This document shows, in pieces, positions 1-45,278 of a stretch of DNA of 64,000 nucleotides. The position numbers and the translations under genes are program-made. This DNA comes from Gonatopus flavifemur. Lineage: Eukaryota; Arthropoda; Insecta; Hymenoptera; Dryinidae. Location of the stretch: positions 12,540,501 through 12,604,500 of the forward strand of contig JAFFJZ010000009.1 in NCBI GenBank assembly GCA_018340375.1. The letters run 5' to 3'. Each line of letters begins with the position of its first letter. The first letter of the stretch is position 1. The notes beneath the pieces are model-generated. The model did no database searches. It was not told the origin of the DNA and worked only from the letters and a program-made list of their open reading frames with translations.

Positions 1-67
1 AAAGGGTAAGGAAATTGTATCAAAAAATGATTTAATATGTTTGTTAATTAATGATGTTTGTTTTCAG

Positions 68-791
68 ATTTTCCTTCAAGGGAAAAACCCACTGGCAGAA
101 GCTCAAATGTGAGCAATGGTTTGAACCCACAAGTCTCTGGAGAGACTCATATGGAGGAAAGAAAAGGAGTTTTACACGGATGTAAATGCTGTAAGTATCT
201 CAATATCTTTTTATATATATATATATATTCATATTATTATATATTGAAATAGAAAGATAGATGACTTTTTCCAACTTGTGTATTCAGAAAAAATCATGTA
301 TCTCTCTATGTATGTATGATATGAGAGTGTTCAATGTGTTATTCTAACACATTTTCGCTCTCGATACTGAATATTTGTCCCCTTTTTCACAGATTTTTCA
401 TTTTACAGGTTCGCTAGAGTGAATTTGGGGAGTATCGTCTCCAGCGCTAAGGAGATTTCTCTGACGAAGAGGAGGAAAGACTTCAAATTAGGATTCTATG
501 ACTTCGTTAAGTACTCCAGGTGAGATAGACAATTATATTTATAATTCATTTCCTTCAAATAGTAAGATAGATGATTTTTCAATTTGTATATTGAAAAGTC
601 ATGTATCTTTTTATATATCTATCGTATGAGAGTGTTTAATGTGTCTTTTTAACACATTTTCACTCTCGATAGTGAATATTTGTTCCCTTTTTAATAGATT
701 TTTCTTTTACAGGTTCGATGGAGTGGATTGCAGGTTTAGCGTCTCCAGCGCTAAGATGTTTGTCCTGACGGAGAGGGGGAAAGGCTCCTAA
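68..791 (+). CDS. 3' end of an unrecognised spliced gene with two near-duplicate last exons
   Basis: Three exons can be joined by consensus sites: 68-190 (AG at 66-67, GTAAGT from 191), 393-519 (AG at 391-392, GTGAGA from 520) and 698-791 (AG at 696-697), ending in TAA at 789-791. The phases fit across both introns and no stop interrupts the frame. Upstream exons lie before the window. The first exon codes a hydrophilic stretch ending HGCKC. Exons 2 and 3 are paralogous: both read F-Y-R-F near their start, then VSSAK, then LT[K/E]R, so the gene grew by tandem exon duplication. An AATAAA lies 68 bases after the stop. I recognise no family; no signal peptide or membrane segment is visible in this part. 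It could be a degenerate copy, but the matched phases argue for a real gene. Confidence 0.5.
246..775 (+). repeat. Tandem exon-plus-intron duplication with conserved intronic hairpin
   Basis: The segment 246-556 is repeated, diverged, from 557. Each copy holds an intron then an exon. In both introns GAGAGTG pairs with a distal C[A/G]CTCTC, and inside it AATGTGT pairs with ACACATT, giving a two-step stem about 60 bases before the acceptor. The inner loop differs between copies while the stems stay paired. Confidence 0.65.
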
Positions 792-858
792 CTTTCATCG
801 AGGGATATTATTCTTCGTCGTGGGAATATAAACTAGTGTTGGTTATCGACAAGCAGGA

Positions 859-864
859 AATAAA
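859..864 (+). other. Putative poly(A) signal of the plus-strand gene
   Basis: AATAAA, 68 bases after the TAA at 789-791. No downstream GU-rich element was confirmed. Confidence 0.35.
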
Positions 865-949
865 TACCAACACCTTCTACGAGGGACCTTGAGAAGGGAA
901 TACGTAGTTCCCTTTACTTCATTGGAAGATATGGGTGATGGAATCACCT

Positions 950-1156
950 GTTCGACTTGAAGAGTCGAACAAATAGTGTAAATTTAGTGTTTCGTGTAGT
1001 GTTTTATTGGTGAATCTGGTTTTAAGTTATTTGTCTCCTTCAATCATTCAGAGAATGGATATTTTTCCATTCCTGTAATGATTGATATGGAATTTGTTGA
1101 TTGTCGACCAGGTGTTGGTCGTATAAGTAGATTCATCGATTAGACAAGTCGATGAA
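950..1156. repeat. Cluster of separate perfect hairpins between two convergent genes
   Basis: Three stem-loops can be read: 950-970 (8-bp stem GTTCGACT, 5-base loop), 1041-1084 (outer stem CAATCATT, inner stem GAATGGA, a nested hairpin) and 1132-1156 (8-bp stem TTCATCGA). A weaker one lies near 1103-1122. The loops are not shared. The cluster sits downstream of the plus-strand gene and downstream of the minus-strand gene that ends near 1350. Confidence 0.5.
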
Positions 1157-1353
1157 CCAGATTGTATATCAAGTGTTAGTGATTTAAAGTGATAGTGGTT
1201 TGAGTGTAGTGAAATCTAATGGGATTATTATTATTATTACAACGATGCAAGGTTTGTGGTTAGATATATTCATATATAATTTTATATGTTTTGGGATGGA
1301 GTCACACACGTAGGTTAAATAAAAATTGAAAATTTGCAGACATATGTGGTGAT

Positions 1354-1359
1354 TTTATT
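1354..1359 (-). other. Putative poly(A) signal of the minus-strand zinc-ribbon gene
   Basis: AATAAA on the minus strand, 13 bases after the stop codon of the coding exon at 1373-1839. Confidence 0.45.
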
Positions 1360-1372
1360 TAAAGAATAGAAT

Positions 1373-1839
1373 TTACAAATTCTCGGGGCGATCCCCGAAA
1401 ATTCTCATACAAATCACTCTTTTATTTGCTTCTGGAGTGAAGGTGATAGTTTTAATTTGTTCTAAAGTTAATTTAGCGTATTTATACACAAAATTTTTAC
1501 AAGTGGGGCATTTAAAATATTCTTGCTTTGTTTTGATGCATTCTTCGCATCGCCGGGGTAACTTTGGCCGAAGATGAACCGGTTCTTTGGATGGACGTCG
1601 CTTTTGGGGTTGTGGCTGTTGGTTGGGTTGGAGCAATGTTCCTGGTTGTTTACAGGCTTCTTGATACTCTTTTAAAAATCCTTTATAATTTTCGGTACGT
1701 TGATTTATTTTTTGTTTCGTCCTTTGCAAAGCCGTTTTATTCAAATTATTTCCGAACGTGTTCAATAATTTCCGTTTGGCCGAAATATGCTGTCTATATG
1801 CCCGTAGGTCATATTCTATCTCCTGGATTGATCGAGTCA
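1373..1839 (-). CDS. Small coiled-coil and zinc-ribbon protein, start codon made by splicing
   Basis: The open frame encodes about 155 residues. It has no ATG at its start: the first codon in the genome is GTG directly at an acceptor (TTTATTTTAG, ending at 1840), with an in-frame stop a few codons upstream in the intron. A consensus donor (GTAAGT, 3441-3436) ends an upstream leader exon in A, so splicing would produce A|TG as the start codon. The protein has a charged helical half (residues about 1-62), a Q/P-rich basic linker (about 64-96) and two CxxC pairs (CEEC and CPTC, about 98-115) typical of a zinc ribbon, then a hydrophobic tail. A TATA box at 3635-3627 and AATAAA at 1354-1359 complete the unit. 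I recognise no family. The 1.6-kb intron contains the hairpin array. Confidence 0.55.
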
Positions 1840-2029
1840 CTAAAATAAATCAGATAAATCCACAATTGATTACACTCGGGGTTGTTTAACCTATTCTTGC
1901 AAATGTAGAGTTGCGACAATGAGAATGAAAACTTCAAAGGGATGGTGATATGATACTCATATTATGTTTATGTTGATTAAAAAGGAAGATCTTGTGCAAT
2001 TGAATGAGGATATATTTTATGATCACGAT

Positions 2030-2721
2030 CGCGTGTATCGTGACCAAAATTGTGATGTCTTTTACTGTTAACAATCGCGAGTATTGTTAACAGTGAAGAA
2101 ATATCACGAGTATATTTCTGTACAAATGATCACGAGTATCATAAGAATTTTTAAGATTTGATCACGAGTATCATATCTTGAATGTGGAAGGTATATGGAT
2201 AACGTATATTCTGATAACGACCACGAGTTTCGTTATCAGGGAAAAGGACAGAAATTCGAAAGGATTAAGACTAGATCGCGAGTATCTCGTCTTAAAACAA
2301 GGAAAATTGTATAGTATGTTCTGAAAACGACCGCGAGTATCGTTATCAGGGAAAAGGATAGAAGTTTGAAGGGATTAAGACTAGATCGCGAGTATCTCGT
2401 CTTAAAACAAGGAAAATTGTGTAGTATGTTCTGATAACGACCGCGAGTTTCGTTATCAGGGAAAAGGATCGAAATTTGAAGGGATTAAGACTAGATCGCG
2501 AGTATCTCGTCTTAAAACAAGGAAAATTGTATAGTATGTTCTGATAACGACCGCGAGTTTCGTTATCAGGGGAAAGGATAGAAATTTGAAGGGATTAAGA
2601 CTAGATCGCGAGTATCTCGTCTTAAAACAAGGAAAATTGTATAATATGTTCTGATGCCGACCGCGAGTTTCGTTATCAGGGAGAAGGATAGAAATTTGAA
2701 GGGATTAAGAAGAAATAAAAT
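2030..2721. repeat. Hairpin array block 1 (692 bp)
   Basis: Starts at the first base of the CGCGTGT loop of hairpin 1 and runs to the base before the CGCGTGT loop at 2722-2728. It contains hairpins with five distinct stems, then four copies of the 110-bp two-hairpin unit (starts near 2263, 2373, 2483 and 2593). Confidence 0.85.
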
Positions 2722-3413
2722 CGCGTGTATCGTGACCAAAATTGTGATGTCTTTCACTGTTAACAATCGCAAGTATTGTTAACAGTGAAGAAATATCACG
2801 AGTATATTTTTGTACAAATGATCACGAGTATCATGAGAATTTTTAAGATTTGATCACGAGTATCATATCTTGAATGTGGAAGGTATATGGATAACGTATA
2901 TTCTGATAACGACCACGAGTTTCGTTATCAGGGAAAAGGACAGAAATTCGAAAGGATTAAGACTAGATCGCGAGTATCTCGTCTTAAAACAAGGAAAATT
3001 GTATAGTATGTTCTGAAAACGACCGCGAGTATCGTTATCAGGGAAAAGGATAGAAGTTTGAAGGGATTAAGACTAGATCGCGAGTATCTCGTCTTAAAAC
3101 AAGGAAAATTGTGTAGTATGTTCTGATAACGACCACGAGTTTCGTTATCAGGGAAAAGGATTGGAATTTGAAGGGATTAAGACTAGATCGCGAGTATCTC
3201 GTCTTAAAACAAGGAAAATTTTATAGTATGTTCTGATAACGACCGCGAGTTTCGTTATCAGGGGAAAGGATAGAAATTTGAAGGGATTAAGACTAGATCG
3301 CGAGTATCTCGTCTTAAAACAAGGAAAATTGTATAATATGTTCTGATAACGACCGCGAGTTTCGTTATCAGGGAAAAGGATAGAAATTTGAAGGGATTAA
3401 GAAGAAATAAAAT
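2722..3413. repeat. Hairpin array block 2 (692 bp, same length as block 1)
   Basis: Same order of hairpins as block 1 with roughly ten substitutions, including one that changes a loop to CGCAAGT. Its first hairpin is hybrid: the left arm (AATAAAAT, before 2722) belongs to the array's last hairpin and the right arm (ATCGTGACC) to the first, so it cannot fold. Confidence 0.85.
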
Positions 3414-3441
3414 CGCGTGTATTTTATTCTTTTGAACTTAC

Positions 3442-3604
3442 TTTGTGGTTTTTGATGAATAAAACTTCCCAATTAAATGATGGTTGAGTATATTCGAAAA
3501 TTATCAAGTACAAGGAACTTAACTTTGAGATTATAACGTATGTAATTTTTTGAATTGAACTATAATAGTGAATGTATATAAGTTGAGAAAAATTTGAGAG
3601 TGAG
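3442..3604 (-). other. ATG-free leader exon of the minus-strand zinc-ribbon gene
   Basis: Inferred from a TATA box about 30 bases upstream and a GTAAGT donor at 3441-3436. The exon contains no ATG on the minus strand and ends CACAAA, supplying the A of the start codon. Confidence 0.45.
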
Positions 3605-3626
3605 TGTCAAAGGGCACGAGGTGGCT

Positions 3627-3635
3627 CCTTATATA
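3627..3635 (-). promoter_or_regulatory. TATA box of the minus-strand zinc-ribbon gene
   Basis: TATATAAGG on the minus strand in a locally GC-richer stretch, with a likely start site near 3604 (TTGACACTCACTC). Confidence 0.5.
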
Positions 3636-3649
3636 CTGTTCTGGGAGCT

Positions 3650-5340
3650 GCCCTCCAAGTGGGGGTCAGTTGTTGAGGAAAGAAGGAAATATTTTTTCAT
3701 TCTTTCTATGGCTCGACAGTTTTTTTCATATAGGTTTTCCTACGTATCAATGCTTCTTGTGTTCGCATAGCTTTTCCTCGTAGACTCGAGTTAAAAATAA
3801 TAGATTTTCTAATAATAATTGTTCAGAATTACAATGATAATGATCTTATATGATATATTTGTTGGTCTCTCATAGTTTAAATAGATTTTCCCAATGAGAA
3901 GCAACATAGAAATTGTTGAATCATAATTTTAATGTTTTTGAATAGTTTCTTGAACCTTGTTATATCCTAGTTATATATTTGTTATAAAAATATCATGGAG
4001 ATATTCTATTGAGTAATATTCATCAAAAATATGATTCACTACAATTGAATATTTTCAGAATTCGTTTAAATTTGTGAAAAATATGTTTTAAATATTGCTC
4101 AAGTTGGAAAAAAACCATTTTCAATGTATTATATCTATCTATAGCTTCATTTGGGAATTCTAGTCAATATTAAGAATGTAATCTGAACAGTTTATATTAG
4201 ATTTTATAATTCTATTGCATAGATTAATTCTTATCCAAAGTTTGGGGGTTGAGTCATATTGTTAAAGAAAATATATAGTTGATAATAACTAATACTTAAG
4301 AATCTGAATTTGGTTATAATTATTGCCCAATAATATTGCATATCTAAAAATTATTTCTGAAAGTATACATAGAGTTAGGAATGCATGGGTTGACGTGACA
4401 TGCGACGTATCGAAACAGCACAGGCATTGTTCTGGTCTCGAGTTTTTTATAAACGCTTTTCCGTAGCGCACAGGAGTTTCCTTCGAATCTGTCACCCAAA
4501 TGTATACAGAATTTGTATACATTCCGACGTACTTTCAAAAACAATTCAAAGGCGTAGGAAAAGAATATATTTTAAAATATTCGCATTTTTCATTGAATAT
4601 TGATTGAAATTCAAAATTATATAATATATATAAATATATATATATATATGTATATAATTATCTATGTGTACATATATATATATATATAAAGAAAATACGA
4701 ATTATGAGAGAAAAAAAAGAATATATATATATCATGAACGAATGAAAATTACATAACGCGAAAATTTTATTTATATATATTGTTTTATGAATTAATAGAA
4801 GAACTTTACATGAAAGATTGTTACTTGCATGTAATTGGATTGTTACATAGATATATTAGAACCAATTGAAATCATGATTCAAATATAATTTTCCTAATTA
4901 TAAGATTGTTATTCCATGTTATGTAATTTTGATATAATATTTATATAACAATGTTATATGAGTAAAGAGTATGAATATATCTATATCCTGATAGAAGAGA
5001 GACAAAAAAAGTGCGAAAAAAGATGAGGATGTTACATCACTAAGAGAATGAATAAAAAATCACGGTAAGAGAAAATTGAAATGCTCAATCTACCTTATTT
5101 ACTCGTGGAAATTCATTTTAAAGAAATTATTCATGAAATAATTCATATTCAGAGTGCTTGTGTCCTTAAATGTTCACTAATGGGGTCAGTTACCTTACTA
5201 GGGTTTGGGAATGCTTATGCGTGTCACGTCCTGTATATTTCTATACAGAACGGCGAGTAGTTTTTTAATTCCCCAATTTAACTATAACGTAAGGATGGGG
5301 TAGGCGATGGAATGAATGAGACTCGAGAATGAAATTATCT
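3650..5340. other. AT-rich stretch without a recognisable gene
   Basis: Only short random frames. An (AT)n-like tract lies at about 4618-4690. A small stem-loop (CTGTATA/TATACAG) lies near 5232-5250, just beyond the 3' end of the next minus-strand gene. Confidence 0.5.
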
Positions 5341-6581: not shown

Positions 6582-7056
6582 CATTTTTCTGACCTGTCAA
6601 TCAACCAATCAGAATTGTCCCTCCCGCTTTGATTCTTTAAGGGTAAAAGTATGTGTTATTTTGATTCTTTTTTGGTGTCCTTTGTCGAACGGTAAATTTG
6701 GTCACTTGGATTTTTCTACCTCTTCTTCGGAACCGATTCCTTCACGCCGTTGTTAAGAGTCTTCATCATCTTCGGACTCTCTTAACTATTTTCTATCATT
6801 GTTATTATTTTTATTGACACTAATATCGCACTATTATTATTATTATTATGATTTGTTCTTAACTTGTTGTTATTGTCAATCTAAAAATTCATTTGTTTCT
6901 TGGTGTCGTCATTGTTGATAAACTGTTGATTTTGTTAGTTATTACAAGAAGTTTGTTCACTGAAATCATATTAGTTATTCTATGAAAATTGTTACAAAGT
7001 GTTTTATATTGTTTCAAAAAATTGTTGACTTAGCAATGAAGAGACAGAAAGAAATA

Positions 7057-9088
7057 CAGGGTGGTGCATTTAAAGTGTCGCGGGCGTTTTTTCCAAAAAT
7101 GAAATGAGATACAAGAAAATTTTTCCGACAAAAATTGTAGGGTATCGAGGGGGACATCCGATGGTGGCCTTGGCTTTGACCTCAAATCTCATCTTCAAGG
7201 GCATTCTGAGGTCAACTCTTGTTTTTTAAATAGCATCTCATATTTTTTACTGCAGATTTGGATTCTAGGTCGAAAACCAAGAAACTTTTGTCTGAACCAT
7301 TTTCCTGAGATCCGCAAAGATGACGCTCTAATCGATATTGTTCCATACTGGATCTGACATTAGAATAACTCGAAAACGAAGGGTCTTGGGGGAGAATGTT
7401 TCGGACAAAAGTTGTCTGATTCCAAGGGGGACCCCTTGAACTGAAACGGAGGTGATGGGGTATAACAGACAAAACACAACACATTTCAATCGTCTACATC
7501 ACTTGGATAATTTTAATGCAGTAGATGCTCAAAATGATGGCCTTCGACTTCAATACACATTTCAAAACGTTTTACGAAATATTGCTGAACTCGTGCTGAA
7601 ATATCTTTATTGATGCTCGCGCATGCATTGATGATTCGTTGACGCATATTCTCAGGTGTAGTCGGTGCTTGTTGATGGACTGTATCTTTTATGTATCCCC
7701 ATAGAAAAAAATCTGGAGAAGTAAGATCCGGAGAACGGGCAGGCCAATGAACTGGTCCACGACGTCCTATCCATCGTCCAGGATAATCTCTGTCCAATAT
7801 TTCTCGAGCTGTGACTGCATAATGGGATGGACAACCATCGTGTTGATACCACATATTCAATCGTTCCTGAATAGGTATGTCTTCAAGTAATGTTGGAAGT
7901 ACTTGATCTAAGAAATGTCTGTACTTCTCTCCATTTAGCGTATCTGCAATGAAGTACGGTCCAATTACTCGAGATCGAAAAATACCACACCAAACATTCA
8001 CAGCCCATTGTCTTTGATGCTCTACTTGACGTAACCATCTTGGATTTTCTGTCGCCCAGTAATGCATATTATGTCGATTTACTTGACCATGATTGGTGAA
8101 GATCGACTCATCAGAAAATAATATGTTGATGAAGTTGTTATTGTGCATTTGCGCTAGACCCCATCGACAAAACTGTACACGATTTTCGAAATCATCACCG
8201 TGAAGGTCTTGATGCAAACAAATGTGATACGGATGGAATTTGTGACGTTTCAGTATTCGAAGAACACTTCTTCGAGAAATTCCCGAATGGAGTTCAATTT
8301 CACGAGAGCTCACGTGTGGATTATTGGCTACTGCAGCTAGTACATTAACTTCCGCATTTTCTCCGCTAACAGTTCTCATTCGATGTCGTTTTTTCCTTGT
8401 AACACTTCCCGTTTCTGAGAATAATTTTGTGATGCGTTGGAAATACCTAATGGATGGCGTTGTTCTTTCAGGAAATCGTTCTGCATACAAGTCATATGCT
8501 TGTCTGGGGTTCTTATGCACTTCACCGTAAATGTAGATCATATCGATCTTTTCAGGAACAGTGTATCGGATATCCATGATTTTCAATTTGTCATAAACCA
8601 AGTAATAATCAAATGTAACTGACAAACTGACTTTCAAAATCGTGAATTTTCACTGAACCCCGTCGTTTGTTCACATCGCGTGAGCTCTGAATGGTGGTAA
8701 TGTAGACGATTGGAATGTGTTGTGTATTGACAACTTTTGTACGAAACATTCTTTTGCAAGACCCTTCGTTTTCGAGTTATTCGAATGTCAGATTCAAAAT
8801 GGAACAATATTGATTAGAGCGCCATCTTTGCGGATTTCAGGAAAATGGTTCAGACAAAAGTTTCTCGGTTTTTGACCTAGAATCCAAATCTGTAGTGAAA
8901 AATATGAGATGCTATTTAAAAAACAAGAGTTGATCTCAGAATGCCCTTGAAGATGAGATTTGAGGTCAAAGCCAAGGCCACCATCGGATGTCCCACTCGG
9001 TACCCTACAACTTTTGTCCGGAAAATTTTCTCGTATCTCACTTCATTTTTGGAAAAAACGCCCGCGACGCTTTAAATGCCCCACCCTG
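7057..9088 (-). mobile_element. Tc1/mariner DD41D (rosa-like) element, copy 1, possibly intact
   Basis: 2032 bp, flanked by TA at 7055-7056 and 9089-9090. The termini are CAGGGTGGTGCATTTAAAG and its near-perfect complement. Terminal inverted repeats extend about 365 bp (7057-7425 and 8725-9088) with scattered mismatches. One uninterrupted transposase lies inside on the minus strand. A near-identical decayed copy is 2.3 kb away at 11416-13446. Confidence 0.93.
7513..8577 (-). CDS. DD41D Tc1/mariner transposase, uninterrupted
   Basis: 354 residues counting from the ATG at 8577 (an alternative start codon upstream would add 20). It cuts and pastes its own element at TA sites. The N-terminal half has helix-turn-helix character (PRQAYDLYAERFP; SGISRRSVLRIL). 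Catalytic aspartates are seen in FSDES, HDGCPSHY and SPDLTSPDFF. Counting from the aspartate of HDG to that of SPDFF leaves 41 residues between, hence DD41D, the spacing of the rosa/Visitor group rather than mariner (34D) or Tc1 (34E). No stop or frameshift is seen, so the enzyme could be functional. Confidence 0.9.
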   Translation of the reverse strand: MDIRYTVPEKIDMIYIYGEVHKNPRQAYDLYAERFPERTTPSIRYFQRITKLFSETGSVTRKKRHRMRTVSGENAEVNVLAAVANNPHVSSREIELHSGISRRSVLRILKRHKFHPYHICLHQDLHGDDFENRVQFCRWGLAQMHNNNFINILFSDESIFTNHGQVNRHNMHYWATENPRWLRQVEHQRQWAVNVWCGIFRSRVIGPYFIADTLNGEKYRHFLDQVLPTLLEDIPIQERLNMWYQHDGCPSHYAVTAREILDRDYPGRWIGRRGPVHWPARSPDLTSPDFFLWGYIKDTVHQQAPTTPENMRQRIINACASINKDISARVQQYFVKRFEMCIEVEGHHFEHLLH

Positions 9089-9549
9089 TATAGATGGTTA
9101 TATACAGGGTGTCTCATTTTAATTTTCATATCGGAATAACTCAAAAACGAGGAGTTTTGGAGGAAAATGTTTCCCACAAAAGTTGCGAGATTCCAAGGGG
9201 GACATGTGATGGTGACCTTGACTATGACCTCGGATCTCAACTTCAAGGTCATTCAGAGGTCAACTTTTTTTTCTTGAATGAAATCCCCTCTTTTTGACTG
9301 CAGATTCAGATTTGACGTTGAAAGACAAGAAACTTTCGTCGTAATCATTTGTCCGAATTCCGCACAGATGGTGCTCTAATCGATGAAAAATGAGTTTTAT
9401 GAAACACTCGTATTGCTTTTTGTGTAAAACGACATTCAACTCTCCAGTGTTTTTTTTCCACCTTCTGAGGATTACCGTCGCCATTAGAGTTACCCAATGT
9501 GCACCACGAGGAGGTTGAGCGATCGGTTCTTGCACATCTTTGTGGCCAT

Positions 9550-10740
9550 GGAAAGGGCTGATTGTCTGGACTGTAGAGGTGTGTAATTTTTCACGACAAA
9601 CGCTCTGCGATATGTATGAAAATTCACCGTATCAAATGTTCGATATTTGCACCGTTGACCTGTTGGCATCACCTAATTCGTCTCTGAAAATGTGGTTCCA
9701 ACGACGAAAGCACATCACGTGGAATTGTTCGGCAGACAGTTCGTATTCGGCGTTTCATGTCATCTCTGGTCGTTGGTGGTCTCCCATAAACTACATCTTC
9801 GATGTAATCCCATGAGTTAAAATCCAAAGGGGTAAGATCCGGAGACCTAGCCGGCCAGGCAATTTATCCACCGTGACCAATCCATCTGTGTGGGTAAGAT
9901 GTGTTCAAGAAATTTCTGACAATTGCAGCGTTATGAGGTGGTGCCCCATCATGTTCCGTGTGTAAAGATCAACATCTTTCAACATCCCTGGTAATTTGTC
10001 CCGAATCAATCCCAGATCATTTTCCTTCCTAACAGTATGTTGGAAGAAGTAAGGACCAATGATCTGACCATTCAAAATCCCATACCACACATTCAGAGTC
10101 CAGCGATGTAGATTGTCAACCTGTCGATGCCATCTGAGATTTTCAATTGACCAATAATGACAATTATGTCTGTTCATAACACCGTTACTGCGAAATGTTG
10201 TCTCATCACTAAACATCACGTAATCGGAAAAACCAGGCGGTTGCTCCGAGGCCCATTGACCGAATTCAGCCCTACGTCTGAGTTCATCTCCACTTGATGC
10301 TTGCACCAATGTGATGTGGTAAGGATGATATTCACCAGATCTTAGTATGCGGTGTGTTGTTGATCTTGGGATACCTAATTGGTGATGGATTCCTCTGGTA
10401 CTAACGTGAGGATTCAGGTACACCATTCCTAAATCGGCTACTGAGCGTGCATTCATACGATTCCCATCATAACGCCTTCTGACTCTTGGGATATTCATTC
10501 TTCTAACTCGTCTTCCTATTGAGCGGATCGCCTGAAGTGAAGGCTGGCGTCTATTTGGATACCTCTCTCCATACAATCTTGATGCTGCAGCGTAATTACG
10601 TCAACATTCTCCTAGTATCAGGAGAACATCAAGTATTTCACCCCAGGGATAATCGATGGTATTGAGACCTTCACAACACTGATCAAAGATTTTCTTCAAG
10701 TTTGAATCGTAAATCGGGAGGAATTTATGAATGAATGAGG
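9550..10740 (-). pseudogene. DD41D transposase, broken by stops and frameshift
   Basis: Open part 9905-10576 (223 residues) matches the middle of the transposase (FSDETTF, first aspartate). The remaining motifs HDGAPPHN and SPDLTPLDF are found downstream in another minus-strand frame (9830-9960), separated by 41 residues, so the same DD41D spacing applies. A TGA interrupts the N-terminal helix region near 10600 and another stop lies before SPDL. Inactive. Confidence 0.85.
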
Positions 10741-10854
10741 GATATTAAACATTCCGTTTCACTTATGTTTGTAAACAATGCTCTAGTATAAACTTTCCTG
10801 TTCATGATAAACAAAAGTATTGTTGTGGCCTTGTGTTTGGCAACAATCCACAGT

Positions 10855-11005
10855 AACGGTACTACGAACAGACATAATTGTCAATATTGGTCGATGGGAA
10901 TCCCAGCTAGGTCTCCGGATCTTACCACTTTGGATTTTTACTTATGGGGTTTCATCAAATTCCCAGGGCCACAAAGATGTGCAAGATCCGATCGCTCAAC
11001 CTCCT
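10855..11005 (+). pseudogene. Inverted fragment of the same transposase
   Basis: The plus strand encodes NRHNCQYWS joined directly to PARSPDLTTLDFYLWGF, two motifs that are about 130 residues apart in the full protein. It is thus an inverted, internally deleted copy of the 3' half of the gene, continuous with the right arm. Confidence 0.75.
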
Positions 11006-11415
11006 CGTGGTGCACATTTGGTAACTCTAATGGCGACGGTAATCCTCAGAAGGTGGAAAAAAAACACTGGAGAGTTGAATGTCGTTTTACACAAAAAGCA
11101 ATACGAGTGTTTCATAAAACCCATTTTTCATCGATTAGAGCGCTATCTGTGCGGAATTCGGTAAAGTGATTCGGACAAAAGTTTCTTGTCTTTCAACGTC
11201 AAATCTGAATCTGCAGTCGAAAAGAGGGGATTTCATTTGAGAAACAAAACTTGACCTCTGAATGACCTTGAAGTTGAGATCCGAGGCCATAGTCAAGGTC
11301 ACCATCACATGTCTCCCTCGGACTCTCACAACTTTTGTGGGAAACATTTTCCTCCAAAACTCCTCGTTTTTGAGTTATTCCGATATAAAAAATAAAATGG
11401 GACACCCTGTATATA

Positions 11416-13446
11416 CAGGGTGGGGCATTTAAAGTGTCGCGGGCGTTTATTCCAAAAATAAAATGAGATACGAGAAAATTTTTCCACCAAAAATTGTAGA
11501 GTATCGAGGGGGACATCCGATGGTGGCCTTGGCTTTGACCTCAAATCTCATCTTCAAGGGCATTCTGAGGTCAACTCTTGTTTTTTGAATAGCATCTCAT
11601 ATTTTCTACTGCAGATTTGGATTCTAAGTCAAAAACCAGGAAACTTTTGTCTGAACCATTTTCCTGAAATCCGCAAAGATGGCGCTCTAATCGATATTGT
11701 TCCATACTGCATCTGACATTAGAATAACTCGAAAACGAAGGGTCTTGGAGGAGAATGTTTCGGACAAAAGTTGTCTGATTCCAAGGGGGACCCCTTGAAC
11801 TGGAACGGAGGTGATGGGGTATAACAGACAAAACACAACACATTTCAATCGTCTACATCACTTGGATAATTTTAATGCAGTAGATGCTCAAAATGATGGC
11901 CTTCAACTTCAATACACATTTCAAAACGTTTTACAAAAGATTGTTGAACTCGTGCTGAGATATCTTCATCGATGCTCGCGCATGCATTGATGATTCGTTG
12001 ACGCATATTCTCAGGTGTAGTCAGTGCTTGTTGATAAACTGTATCTTTTATGTATCCCCATAAAAAAAAATCTGGAGAAGTAAGATCCGGAGAACGGGCA
12101 GGCCAATGAACTGGTCCACGACGTTCTATCCATCGTCCAGGATAATCTCTGTCCAATATTTCTCGAGCTGTGACTGCATAATGGGATGGACAACCATCGT
12201 GTCGATACCACATATTCAATCGTTCCTGAATAGGTATGTCTTCAAGTAATGTTGGAAGTACTTGATCTAGGAAATGTCTGTACTTCTCTCCATTTAGCGT
12301 ATCTGCAATGAAGTGCGGTCCAATTACTCGAGATCGAAAAATACCACACCAAACATTCACAGCCCATTGTCTTTGATGCTCTACTTGACGTAACTATCTT
12401 GGATTTTCTGTCGCCCAGTAATGCATATTATGTCGATTTACTTGACCATGATTGGTGAACGTCGACTCATCAGAAAATAATATGTTGATGAAGTTGTTAT
12501 TGTGCATTTGCGCTAGACCCCATCGACAAAACTGTACACGATTTTCGAAATCATCACCGTGAAGGTCTTGATGCAAACAAACGGATACGGATGGAATTTG
12601 TGACGTTTCAGTATTCGAAGAACACTTCTTCGAGAAATTCCCGAATGGAGTTCAATTTCACGAGAGCTCACGTGTGGATTATTGGCTACTGCAGCTAGTA
12701 CATTAACTTCCGCATTTTCTCCGCTAACAGTTCTCATTCGATGTCGTTTTTCCCTTGTAACACTTCCCGTTTCTGAGAATAATTTTGTAATGCGTTGAAA
12801 ATACCTAATGGATGGCGTTGTTCTTTCAGGAAATCGTTCTGCATACAAGTCATATGCTTGTCTGGGGTTCTTATGCACTTCACCGTAAATGTAGATCATA
12901 TCGATCTTTTCAGAAACCGTGTATCGGATATCCATGATTTTCAATTTGTCATAAACCAAGTAATAATCAAATGTAACTGACAAACTGACTTTCAAAATCG
13001 TGAATTTTCACTGAACCCCGTCGTTTGTTTACATCGCGTGAGCTCTGAATGGTGGTAAAGTAGACGATTGAAATGTGTTGTGTATTGACAACTTCTGTAC
13101 GAAACATTCTCTTGCAAGACCCTTCGTTTTCGAGTTATTCGAATGTCAGATTCAAAAGGGAACAATATCGATTAGACCGCCATTTTTGCGGATTTTAGGA
13201 GAATGGTTCAGACAAAAGTTCCTTGGTTTTTGACCTAGAATCCAAATCTGCAGTAAAAAATATGAGATGCTATTTAAAAAACAAGAGTTGATCTCAGAAT
13301 GCCCTTGAAGATGAGATTTGAGGTCAAAGCCAAGGCCACCATCGGATGTCCCCCTCGGTACCCTACAACTTTTGTCCGAAAAATTTTCTCGTATCTCACT
13401 TTATTTTTGGAAAAAACGCCCGCGACACTTTAAATGCCCCACCCTG
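11416..13446 (-). mobile_element. DD41D (rosa-like) element, copy 2, decayed
   Basis: 2031 bp, flanked by TA at 11414-11415 and 13447-13448, ends CAGGGTGGGGCATTTAAAG. Nearly identical to 7057-9088 throughout, including the long inverted ends. Confidence 0.93.
11872..12935 (-). pseudogene. DD41D transposase of copy 2, one frameshift and one nonsense codon
   Basis: Compared with the intact copy, one base is missing near 12581 (AAACGGATACGG instead of AAATGTGATACGG) and a tryptophan codon has become TAG near 12396. Otherwise the two proteins differ by only a few residues, so inactivation is recent. Confidence 0.9.
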
Positions 13447-13480
13447 TATATTCGTGTTTGTGTATAGGAGATTATATATA

Positions 13481-22082: not shown

Positions 22083-25000
22083 TGTTACGTCAAAACTATT
22101 AGCCTTTTAGTTCTTTATGTAACCTTCGATAGTTAAAGGAAGGCATTGGATCATCGAGTCCAATGTTCCCTTTAATACCCCACTTTAGCTAGGATAAAAA
22201 CCCTAGACGAGGACTGGGGAGAGGATATTGTTTGAAATAATATGAAGATCAATTTTTATACTGAAATGCAAGATGGTATATTCTAAAAAGAAAAACAATG
22301 ATGTCTTGAAATTACAAAGTTACTAAAATAAAATCTTAACTATCATAAGTTCATAAATTCAAATTCAAATTAAGTTAAAGATCTTTTCTGTTCAATATAA
22401 GAAAGAGAAATATTCACTTAATCTTTGAAGAACTTGGATCTTGTTTTAGATGAATTCAATAATTCATCGAATTTCGATTCACTTTAAACAAAACAAAAAA
22501 AAAATAGGGTTAGAAAAGATCAGAAGTGAAAGTGTTCCAAAGAAATAGGAGAAATAACTCTGAGGGTTGCTCAGTAGATTAATTTCTCTTCAATGGAATG
22601 AAAATAGTTTAATTTCATGCATTAGGTTTGAGATTTTCAAAAAAAATACAAGTATGGAAATAAGGGATTTTGGGAAGGGAGATGATCACTCAGAACCCGA
22701 GAAATATTAAGATTTCATAATCGATTTTTCATCAACGTAATCGATGGAAATTTAAGGTAGGGAGAGGAAAGGTAAGAGGAAAAATATCCTGAAAAATAAA
22801 CGTTGTTATCGATTATTCTGAAAGAGAAAATTAAAAGGAATATAAAAGAATAGATTATAGTTAAAATACCTGTTTCTTAAATTCTGAATTTCAGAGCCTC
22901 TTTGAAATTTGATAAATTTTCTAATTCCTTTCTTGAGAATTCTAAAATTTTCTCGTCATAAGAAAGGTTGTTCAAAAATTTATTCCTTGCTGGACCCGAT
23001 GAAGGAATATCATTATCTCTAATTTTCCTATGTTTAATTTTTATTCTTTTGATAATACAAAATATTTTCCTCTCAAGATTGTTAATTCTTTTGTTTACTT
23101 CTTGCTCCACTAAAACCAAAAAGAAAGGAGCAAAAGCTATTAATTAAAATTTCTAAAATATGACTTTATTATTCAGAGTTTTTAATAAAATTCTATATTC
23201 AAAGAAAATATTTGAAAGAAACATTCCTAAATTAGAATTTTCTCTTTCCACATGTATGAAATTATGTTGCAGTCTTTCAAAATCAATCATTAAAGAAAAG
23301 AAATTAGGAAAAAAGTAATAGGAAGAAGGAAAAAGAAAAGATTTTTTACTTACTTTTGTAGAATAACAGGAAAGTTTTCGTTGCTCCACACAAGTCTTAT
23401 TCAAACCTTTATTGAGTGAATGAATATTAGAATCGTGTGTGGAGTTTAACACCTTTTCGAATTCTTTTAATTTCACACAATTTTCCTACTGTAAATTTGA
23501 AATATTAACTTCACTTCACTTTAACTTTTAGAAACGGTAATTAGAATTTGAAATGTTAAAACTTTTCTGTAAGAGTATTGAATTGAGATTTTGAATTTGA
23601 ACTTGTAAATTTTAGAAAACTGATTGAACCTTTTTAAAAGAAAGCACGAACAAGAGTATTGAATTGAGATTTTGAATTTGAACTTGTAAATTTTAGAAAA
23701 CTGATTGAACCTTTTTAAAAGAAAGCACGAACAAGAGTGAGTTATTCATGCATTTCCGCTCAATTCTCAGCTCGGTTTTTAGATGGTGAGGGAAAATTCC
23801 AATAGTAGGGAAATGTGGGTGGGAATAATAGAATTTCAGAAAGAAGAAAATGGAGTTCAGATAGGTTGAAGTAGCACGGAATCGTGCATTACCTGAGGGT
23901 AGGCTTGTCCTTGAAAAGGAAATTCTCCATTTTCTTTAATTGGGACAACCCACTTACCCTTTCTCTTGAGCATAATGCCTAACTTATGCTCTCTTTTTAA
24001 ATGTATATATTTCTCTTTCTTGATGTACTATTCTACAGAATTCTTATTTTAATTCAAAATCAATTATTAATTAGAAAATTGTTAGTTGTCAATGATTATT
24101 TAAATTATTCACTACAAGAACATTTCAAAAAAAATGATAATTTTCTATTCTAATTATTGTAACAAGAATTTCAATATTTATATTCATTTTACTTACCTTC
24201 AACTTACCAATACTTACCATTTCAAGAACGTAAACTTTCATTATTTTAAATAATGCTCCATTCTGGTTTAAACTTAGAATTTTGCATTATAGAGATGCTA
24301 GATTGGGCCAGCATTGGCAGCCAATCTTGAATTTCTAAACCAATGGTTAAATTGGTGTTAGAATCTGAATTTTCATGTGTATTAACATGTTCAAGGCTGA
24401 ATTTAACCAAGATCGACGAAGATCGGCAAACGATACTTCGCCAACCCTGGACCAACCTTGGCCCAACGAAGAGTATTGGGGCTTTTTTTATTATAAATAA
24501 AAAAAAAGAAACAAATTGAATATTTGTCGTATTCTTTATAGTGAATTTACTTGAGAAATTTCCAGACAGAGTTGGCGACACAATTCTTCGCTCTAATCCT
24601 CTGCTGTCTACATTTCAATGAGGTTTTTATTACGGGGTAATTTGGAATTTGATTTTATTTGGAAAAGGATGTAATAAAAGAGGAAGAAAAGGGTCTCTGG
24701 TTTTCCAGATTTACTTGTCCCTTTTACATACGGCACAAACATAACGGGAACACAAGTTGTTCTCAACTTGTGTTTTAAAGGGAGACTTCTTTTTCTCTAT
24801 AATTTGAGTGTAAAGAAATCTTCCTTTACCGTATGTGTAATTCTCCTGGGTCGAATTTATCGATAGGGCAACAGATATTCTGTTTTACCCTATTGATAAT
24901 TCGTTCATAGAAATTTAACAGAAGGGAAAGATTCAAAAAAAAAAACAAATAGAAAAGAGAAAGAGATAAAATTTGGAAGAAATTTTACGTTCTCGTTACA
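22083..25000 (-). repeat. 3' LTR of the large retroelement
   Basis: 2918 bp. It contains two copies of a short direct repeat (about 23571-23735), a 10-bp hairpin (AACACAAGTT, near 24747-24775) and the small spliced ORF at 22877-23109. Flanked outside by AACG and inside by the polypurine tract. Confidence 0.95.
22877..23109 (-). CDS. LTR-resident small helical ORF with splice-made start (3' LTR copy)
   Basis: 79 codons including a start codon that exists only after splicing: acceptor TTTTAG ends at 23110, next bases TGGAG; a donor GTAAGT at 23353-23348 follows ACAAAA, giving A|TG. The intron is 244 bases. The leader exon has no ATG and is itself preceded by an acceptor-like TTTACAG near 23490. 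The product is basic and helical with NNLERKI and a KIL...RKELENL tail. Function unknown. The identical copy in the other LTR is no evidence for selection, since LTRs share one template. Confidence 0.45.
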
Positions 25001-42364: not shown

Positions 42365-45278
42365 TGTTACGTCAAAACTATTAGCCTTTTAGTTCTTTAT
42401 GTAACCTTCGATAGTTAAAGGAAGGCATTGGATCATCGAGTCCAATGTTCCCTTTAATACCCCACTTTAGCTAGGATAAAAACCCTAGACGAGGACTGGG
42501 GAGAGGATATTGTTTGAAATAATATAAAGATCAATTTTTATACTGAAATGCAAGATGGTATATTCTAAAAAGAAAAACAATGATGTCTTGAAATTACAAA
42601 GTTACTAAAATAAAATCTTAACTATCATAAGTTCATAAATTCAAATTCAAATTAAGTTAAAGATCTTTTCTGTTCAATATAAGAAAGAGAAATATTCACT
42701 TAATCTTTGAAGAACTTGGATCTTGTTTTAGATGAATTCAATAATTCATCGAATTTCGATTCACTTTAAACAAAACAAAAAAAAATAGGGTTAGAAAAGA
42801 TCAGAAGTGAAAGTATTCTAAAGAAATAGGAGAAATAACTCTGAGGGTTGCTCAGTAGATTAATTTCTCTTCAATGGAATGAAAATAGTTTAATTTCATG
42901 CAATAGGTTTGAGATTTTCAAAAAAATACAAGTATGGAAATAAGGGATTTTGGGAAGGGAGATGATCACTCAGAACCCGAGAAATATTAAGATTTCATAA
43001 TCGATTTTTCATCAACGTAATCGATGGAAATTTAAGGTAGGGAGAGGAAAGGTAAGAGGAAAAATATCCTGAAAAATAAACGTTGTTATCGATTATTCTG
43101 AAAGAGAAAATTAAAAGGAATATAAAAGAATAGATTATAGTTAAAATACCTGTTTCTTAAATTCTGAATTTCAGAGCCTCTTTGAAATTTGATAAATTTT
43201 CTAATTCCTTTCTTGAGAATTCTAAAATTTTCTCGTCATAAGAAAGGTTGTTCAAAAATTTATTCCTTGCTGGACCCGATGAAGGAATATCATTATCTCT
43301 AATTTTCCTATGTTTAATTTTTATTCTTTTGATAATACAAAATATTTTCCTCTCAAGATTGTTAATTCTTTTGTTTACTTCTTGCTCCACTAAAACCAAA
43401 AAGAAAGGAGCAAAGCTATTAATTAAAATTTCTAAAATATGACTTTATTATTCAGAGTTTTTAATAAAATTCTATATTCAAAGAAAATATTTGAAAGAAA
43501 CATTCCTAAATTAGAATTTTCTCTTTCCACATGTATGAAATTATGTTGCAGTCTTTCAAAATCAATCATTAAAGAAAAGAAATTAGGAAAAAAGTAATAG
43601 GAAGAAGGAAAAAGAAAAGATTTTTTACTTACTTTTGTAGAATAACAGGAAAGTTTTCGTTGCTCCACACAAGTCTTATTCAAACCTTTATTGAGTGAAT
43701 GAATATTAGAATCGTGTGTGGAGTTTAACACCTTTTCGAATTCTTTTAATTTCACACAATTTTCCTACTGTAAATTTGAAATATTAACTTCACTTCACTT
43801 TAACTTTTAGAAACGGTAATTAGAATTTGAAATGTTAAAACTTTTCTGTAAGAGTATTGAATTGAGATTTTGAATTTGAACTTGTAAATTTTAGAAAACT
43901 GATTGAACCTTTTTAAAAGAAAGCACGAACAAGAGTATTGAATTGAGATTTTGAATTTGAACTTGTAAATTTTAGAAAACTGATTGAACCTTTTTAAAAG
44001 AAAGCACGAACAAGAGTGAGTTATTCATGCATTTCCGCTCAATTCTCAGCTCGGTTTTTAGATGGTGAGGGAAAATTCCAATAGTAGGGAAATGTGGGTG
44101 GGAATAATAGAATTTCAGAAAGAAGAAAATGGAGTTCAGATAGGTTGAAGTAGCACGGAATCGTGCATTACCTGAGGGTAGGCTTGTCCTTGAAAAGGAA
44201 ATTCTCCATTTTCTTTAATTGGGACAACCCACTTACCCTTTCTCTTGAGCATAATGCCTAACTTATGCTCTCTTTTTAAAATGTATATATTTCTCTTTCT
44301 TGATGTACTATTCTACAGAATTCTTATTTTAATTCAAAATCAATTATTAATTAGAAAATTGTTAGTTGTCAATGATTATTTAAATTATTCACTACAAGAA
44401 CATTTCAAAAAAAATGATAATTTTCTATTCTAATTATTGTAACAAGAATTTCAATATTTATATTCATTTTACTTACCTTCAACTTACCAATACTTACCAT
44501 TTCAAGAACGTAAACTTTCATTATTTTAAATAATGCTCCATTCTGGTTTAAACTTAGAATTTTGCATTATAGAGATGCTAGATTGGGCCAGCATTGGCAG
44601 CCAATCTTGAATTTCTAAACCAATGGTTAAATTGGTGTTAGAATCTGAATTTTCATGTGTATTAACATGTTCAAGGCTGAATTTAACCAAGATCGACGAA
44701 GATCGGCAAACGATACTTCGCCAACCCTGGACCAACCTTGGCCCAACGAAGAGTATTGGGGCTTTTTATTATAAATAAAAAAAAGAAACAAATTGAATAT
44801 TTGTCGTATTCTTTATAGTGAATTTACTTGAGAAATTTCCAGACAGAGTTGGCGACACAATTCTTCGCTCTAATCCTCTGCTGTCTACATTTCAATGAGG
44901 TTTTTATTACGGGGTAATTTGGAATTTGATTTTATTTGGAAAAGGATGTAATAAAAGAGGAAGAAAAGGGTCTCTGGTTTTCCAGATTTACTTGTCCCTT
45001 TTACATACGGCACAAACATAACGGGAACACAAGTTGTTCTCAACTTGTGTTTTAAAGGGAGACTTCTTTTTCTCTATAATTTGAGTGTAAAGAAATCTTC
45101 CTTTACCGTATGTGTAATTCTCCTGGGTCGAATTTATCGATAGGGCAACAGATATTCTGTTTTACCCTATTGATAATTCGTTCATAGAAATTTAACAGAA
45201 GGGAAAGATTCAAAAAAAAAAAACAAATAGAAAAGAGAAAGAGATAAAATTTGGAAGAAATTTTACGTTCTCGTTACA
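42365..45278 (-). repeat. 5' LTR of the large retroelement
   Basis: 2914 bp, nearly identical to 22083-25000; differences are a few substitutions and run-length changes (for example near 44763). It must contain the promoter; I could not pick a convincing TATA box. Confidence 0.95.
43157..43389 (-). CDS. LTR-resident small helical ORF with splice-made start (5' LTR copy)
   Basis: Same as 22877-23109: acceptor ends at 43390, donor GTAAGT at 43632-43627, A|TG start. In this copy it lies downstream of the element's promoter and could be expressed as a first spliced gene. Confidence 0.45.

Follow-up and report, generated by a model that had tools for sequence, protein, structure and literature searches.

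A hairpin array with a shared loop in the predicted leader intron of a Ty3/gypsy LTR from Gonatopus flavifemur

The hairpin array and the LTR that carries it

The stretch of Gonatopus flavifemur DNA analysed here (64,000 nucleotides, the window, at C392:12540501) contains between positions 2021 and 3428 a dense array of hairpins that present a common 7-nt loop on differing stems. Twenty-nine loop motifs lie at 2030–3420 (starts 2030–3414), comprising 25 CRCGAGT, three CGCGTGT and one CGCAAGT, and 27 of them have a stem score of at least 5, with those at 2662 and 2722 failing. The array is assigned to the minus strand, the loop CRCGWGT of the plus strand being ACWCGYG in the transcript. Outside the array, the window has 14 plus-strand motif sites, none with a stem score above 2. 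CRCGAGT occurs 37 times on the two strands of the window compared with 4.7±2.05 expected (maximum of 10 in 100 shuffles), and 25 of the 37 sites fall inside the array, all on the plus strand. The loop word CGAGT is common to 14 perfect-stem hairpins of the array, whereas outside it the best 2-kb stretch has four that share any 5-mer. These counts bear out the estimate of the first-pass annotation, about 28 stem-loops in 1.4 kb, and no comparable 2-kb stretch is present elsewhere in the window. Rfam covariance models gave no matches to the window at gathering scores.

Much of the array has arisen by copying. A tandem duplication with a spacing of 692 extends over 2028–3411 (99% identity across the compared 300 nt), and a 110-bp unit with two hairpins is nested within it. 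As read from the sequence, the joint of the larger duplication lies inside the loop ATCGCGTGTAT, which the first hairpin of the array shares with the last, and at 2722, where the joint falls, the hairpin shows no pairing. Because both events copied hairpins, the hairpin number is inflated and only about eight stems are independent. The earlier claim of at least eight unrelated stems stands as a count of distinct stems (∼8), although several are still recognisably akin. The first array unit folds better than 20 shuffles (z −5.9 for the plus strand and −10.6 for the minus strand), scores to which repeats within the unit contribute.

The array resides in a solo LTR of a Ty3/gypsy element on the minus strand, which occupies positions 1–5036 of the window and starts 557 bases upstream of it (∼5.59 kb in total). 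The LTR has TG..CA ends and a TCAC target duplication at the window copy, and the same LTR ends are accompanied by ACAG at L048/L037, in agreement with the 4–5 bp duplications of Ty3/gypsy elements. It was inserted into the LTR of another element; an uninterrupted second copy of that target LTR is found upstream, showing that the window copy is an insertion and therefore a solo LTR. Its strand was assigned from the genes of a full-length copy on C26, where the genes enclosed by two such repeats, namely gag, RT, RNase H, integrase and a Monjiviricetes glycoprotein, read opposite to the strand on which the array is written. The C26 pieces L079 and L080 lie between arrays 16.8 kb apart and encode CCHC gag, RT, RNase H and integrase, with both ends matching the LTR; none of the seven ORFs examined from this element showed a protease domain. 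Near the LTR end, TGGCGCAGTCGGTAGGACC is a candidate tRNA primer site, which we presume can be assigned to a tRNA. The LTR also contains a 310-bp tandem repeat, with two copies in the window (244–482 and 554–786) and apparently three in L037. Host exons had been considered at 67–190, 411–521 and 712–790 (plus strand) and were abandoned because 244–482 and 554–786 are copies of this LTR-internal repeat.

Hairpins with this loop are not confined to one locus, so that the absence of other loci, which the first-pass annotation had named as refuting its reading, is excluded. A probe of two loops 15–25 bases apart gave 192 matches in the 636-Mb genome, with at least 44 genome places among the 100 matches listed, and the reversed probe gave none. 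Thirty copies were read beside the window copy; each contains 8–19 CRCGWGT sites (some copies being covered in part) compared with 28 in the window. The same probe matched five viral and 23 genome loci in viral and bacterial collections, and a wider-spaced loop probe gave one match. The multi-match loci examined from these collections, in Paenibacillus bovis (L007) and a cyanobacterium (L006), are stemless tandem repeats built on TCGCGAGTAT or TCACGAGTAT and were rejected as relatives of the array, while two motif sites with 6-bp stems in L018 were taken as chance.

The predicted leader intron and its open reading frame

A TATA box, TATATAAG, is located at 3628–3635 on the minus strand, from which transcription would be expected to start near 3605. 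TATATAA is kept in 18 of 23 covering sequences, is replaced by TATAAAAA in L082 and is altered in L039, L064, L086 and L088. The predicted exon 1 (3442–3605, minus strand, its start placed from the TATA box) contains no ATG and is followed by a predicted 5′ splice site, GTAAGT, at 3436–3441. The predicted intron of 1,602 nt (1840–3441) ends in the predicted 3′ splice site TTATTTTAG at 1840–1848, and some 88% of it is hairpin array. These minus-strand splice signals support the earlier placement of the array in a predicted intron. GTRAGT is present in 19 of 23 covering sequences, and the acceptor TTTTAG|TGACTCGATC is also found in L037, L038 and L039. The layout was further assessed in 16 related loci (L082 and 15 of 20 fetched loci, with L096, L097, L098, L101 and L105 left out), of which 13 have GTRAGT before the array and 10 have AG|TGAC after it, some stretches ending short of the acceptor. 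In the window copy, the predicted junction would create an ATG from the A of exon 1 that precedes GTAAGT and the TG that follows the acceptor. One or two ATGs occur between the TATA box and the donor in five of the 11 related loci measured, the TATA call being uncertain in some of them.

The splice-made ATG would open an ORF of 155 codons at 1373–1839 on the minus strand (beginning MTR after predicted splicing), and a candidate poly(A) signal, AATAAA, one of seven in this part of the LTR, lies just past it at 1354–1359. Such a start codon may hide the ORF from gene finders. The predicted product has two N-terminal helices, a basic linker and a CxxC..CxxC motif. Homologues are encoded 3′ of the acceptor in the array-bearing LTR family (A) and in two related families described below, P (two loci) and Q (three loci), with stops in several copies. 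Identity to the window product is 95% for L037 and 31–52% for four others, three of which are partial. Over the first 58 codons, dN/dS is 0.08 for window/L091, 0.23 for window/L110, 0.10 for L037/L091 and 0.32 for L037/L110, all with saturated dS; it is 0.61 for window/L037, a pair with few changes, and five pairs yielded no dS. Searches of Pfam, PDB and protein collections with the ORF product revealed no relation to a known family and no Rev or Rex match, whereas the glycoprotein, used as a control, gave 448 matches. Residues 95–116 match ribosomal protein bL32 weakly (E 0.48), which at most hints at a zinc ribbon. The two N-terminal helices are fairly confident in an AlphaFold model that otherwise offers little (mean pLDDT 63.3). 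The product was also considered as a relative of Gag, and this was rejected since no relation to the Gag of the element was found.

The array is retained in copies that lack the ORF (L038 and L039) or the donor (L068, L073, L076 and L089), although retention in such decayed copies proves little. In L038 and L039, which are subfamily II LTRs, the acceptor is likewise kept and the ORF frame stops after ∼25 codons.

Pairing, constraint and changes of loop

The first-pass annotation had claimed that pairing is kept while sequence changes. This was assessed by comparing the pairing of each left arm with its own and with the other right arms, at positions 3–9 from the loop for the window and its deep relatives. 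For the eight window stems, own arms form 6.00 of 7 Watson–Crick pairs versus 2.41 for swapped arms (0 of 20,000 permutations), and for 17 stems from three deep relatives the values are 3.53 and 2.26 (p 0.00005). Own arms paired better in all four sets, the other two being families P and Q. Alignments of the stem pairs 2163/2277 and 2076/2222 each contain two double changes that keep a pair. The claim thus holds between distant stems. The further claim that stems vary and the loop does not fails at close range, where between subfamilies I and II loops and stems change alike. Within the young family the evidence on pairing is mixed. At H6, T-A has become A-T in 12 of 140 units, yet T.T is found in 13. 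Subfamily II contains broken pairs, namely C.A in H1 (11 of 27), T.T in H2 (10 of 30) and G.A in H5 (8 of 31), and a single mismatch is present in H5 and H7 in almost all copies.

Among 4,265 pair cells of the young family, counted at sites with a likeness of 20/28 or more to a window stem, 3,897 are Watson–Crick, 74 are G.T, 85 are A.C and 209 are other combinations. Wobble pairs in the array copies hence show no strand preference, and choosing a strand on this basis was given up; it is the splice architecture that points to RNA rather than DNA as the form in which the hairpins act. In forced-loop folds of the deep copies L081–L083, 13 of 17 sites favour the minus strand. An A.G terminal mismatch predicts part of such a preference, and for this reason it was not counted as evidence.

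Constraint was compared in 27 of 31 aligned sequences, 15 in subfamily I and 12 in subfamily II, with L085, L086, L087 and L090 left out as truncated or intermediate. Between the subfamilies, 6.6% of compared cells differ in loops, 5.5% in stems and 19.0% in spacers, so that loops and stems have changed about threefold less than spacers (site permutation, p 0.019 for loop/spacer, 0.0012 for stem/spacer and 0.61 for loop/stem). Within subfamily II the values are 2.8, 2.9 and 10.9%, respectively. Within subfamily I, the youngest, loops vary most (3.7%), followed by spacers (1.9%) and stems (1.1%), which goes against the earlier claim that the loop is kept outright. The loop variation is one-sided: among the single CpG-decay products of CGCGAGT, CACGAGT is found at 99 sites and the others at 10, although these sites share descent and are not independent events.

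Constancy of the loop is limited to a family, because related LTR families use other loops. With L082 as the query, 53 matches were obtained, many of them covering the promoter only, and 20 loci were fetched. Six of these (L091–L095 and L097) have the A loop on stems, while the two A-type motif sites of L096 lack good stems. Seven carry a family P array, with a loop that is mostly TCTATTG or TCTAACG between GTG and CAC (array strand); 62 hairpin sites were listed for this family, only those with at least seven pairs, and L099 contains a 112-bp unit carrying two hairpins. Three carry a family Q array, whose loop, flanked by C and G, is in most cases CACAAGT or CGCAAGT. No array was detected in L098, L101 and L105 by the loop patterns used. 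Swapping the arms lowers the pairing in family P (from 5.45 to 4.70 of 8 pairs, 20 distinct) and in family Q (from 5.47 to 3.13 of 9, 15 distinct), with 0 of 20,000 permutations in each case; the margin in P is small because its stems differ little among themselves. In all three families the array lies between GTRAGT and AG|TGAC. The loop therefore differs by LTR family with the layout unchanged. Kissing of loops through the self-complementary CGYG was dropped as an explanation because the P and Q loops lack CGYG.

Candidate roles of the array

In Rev/RRE and HTLV Rex/RxRE, a structured RNA in an intron or LTR is combined with a small basic protein that the same element expresses from its spliced RNA. 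The array resembles them in its position in a predicted LTR intron and in the accompanying ORF for a small basic protein, predicted to be made from spliced RNA. The RRE is one branched structure, in contrast to the 8–28 separate hairpins with a common loop found here, and database searches revealed no sequence relation between the accessory protein and Rev or Rex. The array most likely serves as a multivalent RNA signal whose loop is read by a protein of the element, either the ORF product or, failing that, Gag. We tentatively propose that, acting in cis from a gypsy-type leader intron, it forms part of a Rev/Rex-like switch, a reading that we rank first while regarding it as somewhat short of probable. 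The LTR promoter would give rise to an RNA that, once spliced, would encode the small basic protein with its CxxC..CxxC module and, left unspliced, would serve as genomic and gag-pol RNA. In the unspliced form the hairpins would present many copies of one loop, which the protein may bind, presumably shifting the balance towards unspliced, exported RNA.

The presence of the array and the accessory gene within one unit is in favour of this Rev/Rex-like switch, as is the lower rate of change of loops and stems relative to spacers between subfamilies. Also in its favour are the splice signals that bracket the array in families A, P and Q, the ATG that would arise at the junction in the window copy, the conserved ORF with its low dN/dS for window/L091 (dS saturated) and the better pairing of own arms in all four sets. 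Family-specific loops with a stable layout would be expected if the partner were encoded by the element and diverged alongside. Evidence against such a switch includes the absence of a wobble strand bias, the excess of loop over spacer variation in subfamily I, the broken pairs in H1, H2 and H5 of subfamily II, the exon 1 ATGs in 5 of 11 relatives, the arrays kept in ORF-less or donor-less copies, the failure of the searches to relate the protein to a known family and its poor model outside the N-terminal helices. The repeated nature of the LTR also calls for caution, because a second array copy would end all transcripts at the 3′ side: were R to extend from the TATA box as far as the AATAAA, every transcript, and not unspliced RNA alone, would carry the array through the 3′ LTR. 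HTLV RxRE is likewise located at the 3′ end of all transcripts.

Gag is another candidate partner, and a packaging signal, ranked second, is possible though not likely: nucleocapsid would read the loops, a site 3′ of the donor would limit packaging to unspliced RNA, and a loop specific to a family would ensure self-packaging. The classic retroviral psi is located just 3′ of the splice donor and consists of a few hairpins near gag, whereas the array occupies a very long leader, in which more than 2.5 kb separates it from the LTR end downstream and hence from the PBS and gag. The first loop is found 21 nt past the predicted donor in the window and 17 nt past it in L082, and no GTRAGW occurs between the PBS and the gag start. 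Retroviral psi is treated in PMC8096270 and PMC10726167, and the array hairpins would share its position if the predicted donor were the major one. Stem-loops presenting a common loop word are also the described form of the multiple packaging signals that RNA viruses and HBV use, the word being RGAG in HBV (PMC7612645); such signals are scattered through the genome, unlike an array dense in one intron with family-specific loops. A packaging role leaves the co-inherited accessory ORF unexplained, and the 3′ LTR would bear the array too. A host RNA-binding protein that controls splicing or export through the loops, or hairpins that merely shorten the distance between splice sites, would fit an array that fills most of the window intron and is intronic in families A, P and Q. 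Compaction requires no common loop, and differences between families would be unexpected with a host factor, yet the loops do differ by family, and we consider these explanations doubtful.

If the hairpins act as DNA, they might form cruciforms in the LTR or serve as a cluster of binding sites there, similar to the gypsy insulator, which consists of repeated Su(Hw) sites. The unbiased wobble pairs agree with this, since pairing is kept equally in DNA terms. A duplex site requires no complementary flanks, however, and the array does not extend beyond the predicted intron, making a DNA element quite improbable. The least probable of the explanations is a mutational by-product, in which tandem duplication and quasipalindrome correction keep the arms alike without function. 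Correction between arms can mimic compensatory change, the 110- and 692-bp duplications (the latter with its joint in a loop) attest to the copying, and the loops of subfamily I vary. Against it stand the roughly threefold lower change of loops and stems between subfamilies, the predominance of CACGAGT among single CpG-decay products (with the shared descent noted above) and arrays that occupy the corresponding position in other families and present different loops.

Beyond the switch itself, we can envisage, as a speculative and rather unlikely extension, an autoregulatory unit in giant-LTR insect gypsy elements. It would comprise a promoter, a leader exon, a loop-coded hairpin intron (8 to 28 hairpins here) and a zinc-ribbon-like protein with a splice-only start that reads the loop of its own family. 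The loop would then be an identity code that was switched between families while the layout and the protein stayed. If the protein does read such a code, these elements would provide a natural system for following the joint change of an RNA signal and of the protein that reads it, one genome containing several loop alphabets, and a splice-gated accessory gene would be added to insect gypsy elements. Even with Gag as the partner, the array would stand out among packaging signals for its multivalency. The bacterial CsrB and CsrC sponge RNAs, which are free small RNAs, also have many hairpins with a single loop word on varied stems; theirs is GGA, which the array loop (CRCGWGT, or ACWCGYG in the transcript) does not contain. 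Each ingredient of the proposed unit has precedent, while searches of open-licence papers, read mostly as listings and abstracts, yielded no description of such a hairpin array, or of a dense hairpin-array intron that is combined with a start codon made by splicing and with a switched loop alphabet.

The glycoprotein gene of the full-length element is an observation in its own right. At 268–2256 of L079, an ORF spans almost all of the Monjiviricetes_fusion profile (PF24664, 1e-245), and among the best 120 of its 448 matches the named proteins are from ants and a sawfly. Anakin elements are Pao elements with a chuvirus (Jingchuvirales-type) glycoprotein, and clear capture of a glycoprotein by Gypsy is not reported in the available part of that source (PMC10084718). 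The element described here similarly has a Jingchuvirales-type glycoprotein but is Ty3/gypsy, whereas Anakin, as presented there, is Pao. The window contains a second Ty3/gypsy element (21900–45400) with LTRs of ∼3 kb at 22083–25000 and 42365–45278, whose Monjiviricetes-type glycoprotein is divided between two frames. This element showed no similarity to the array LTR. Positions 7054–13451 are occupied by repeated and inverted copies with a DUF4817/Tc3-type transposase ORF.
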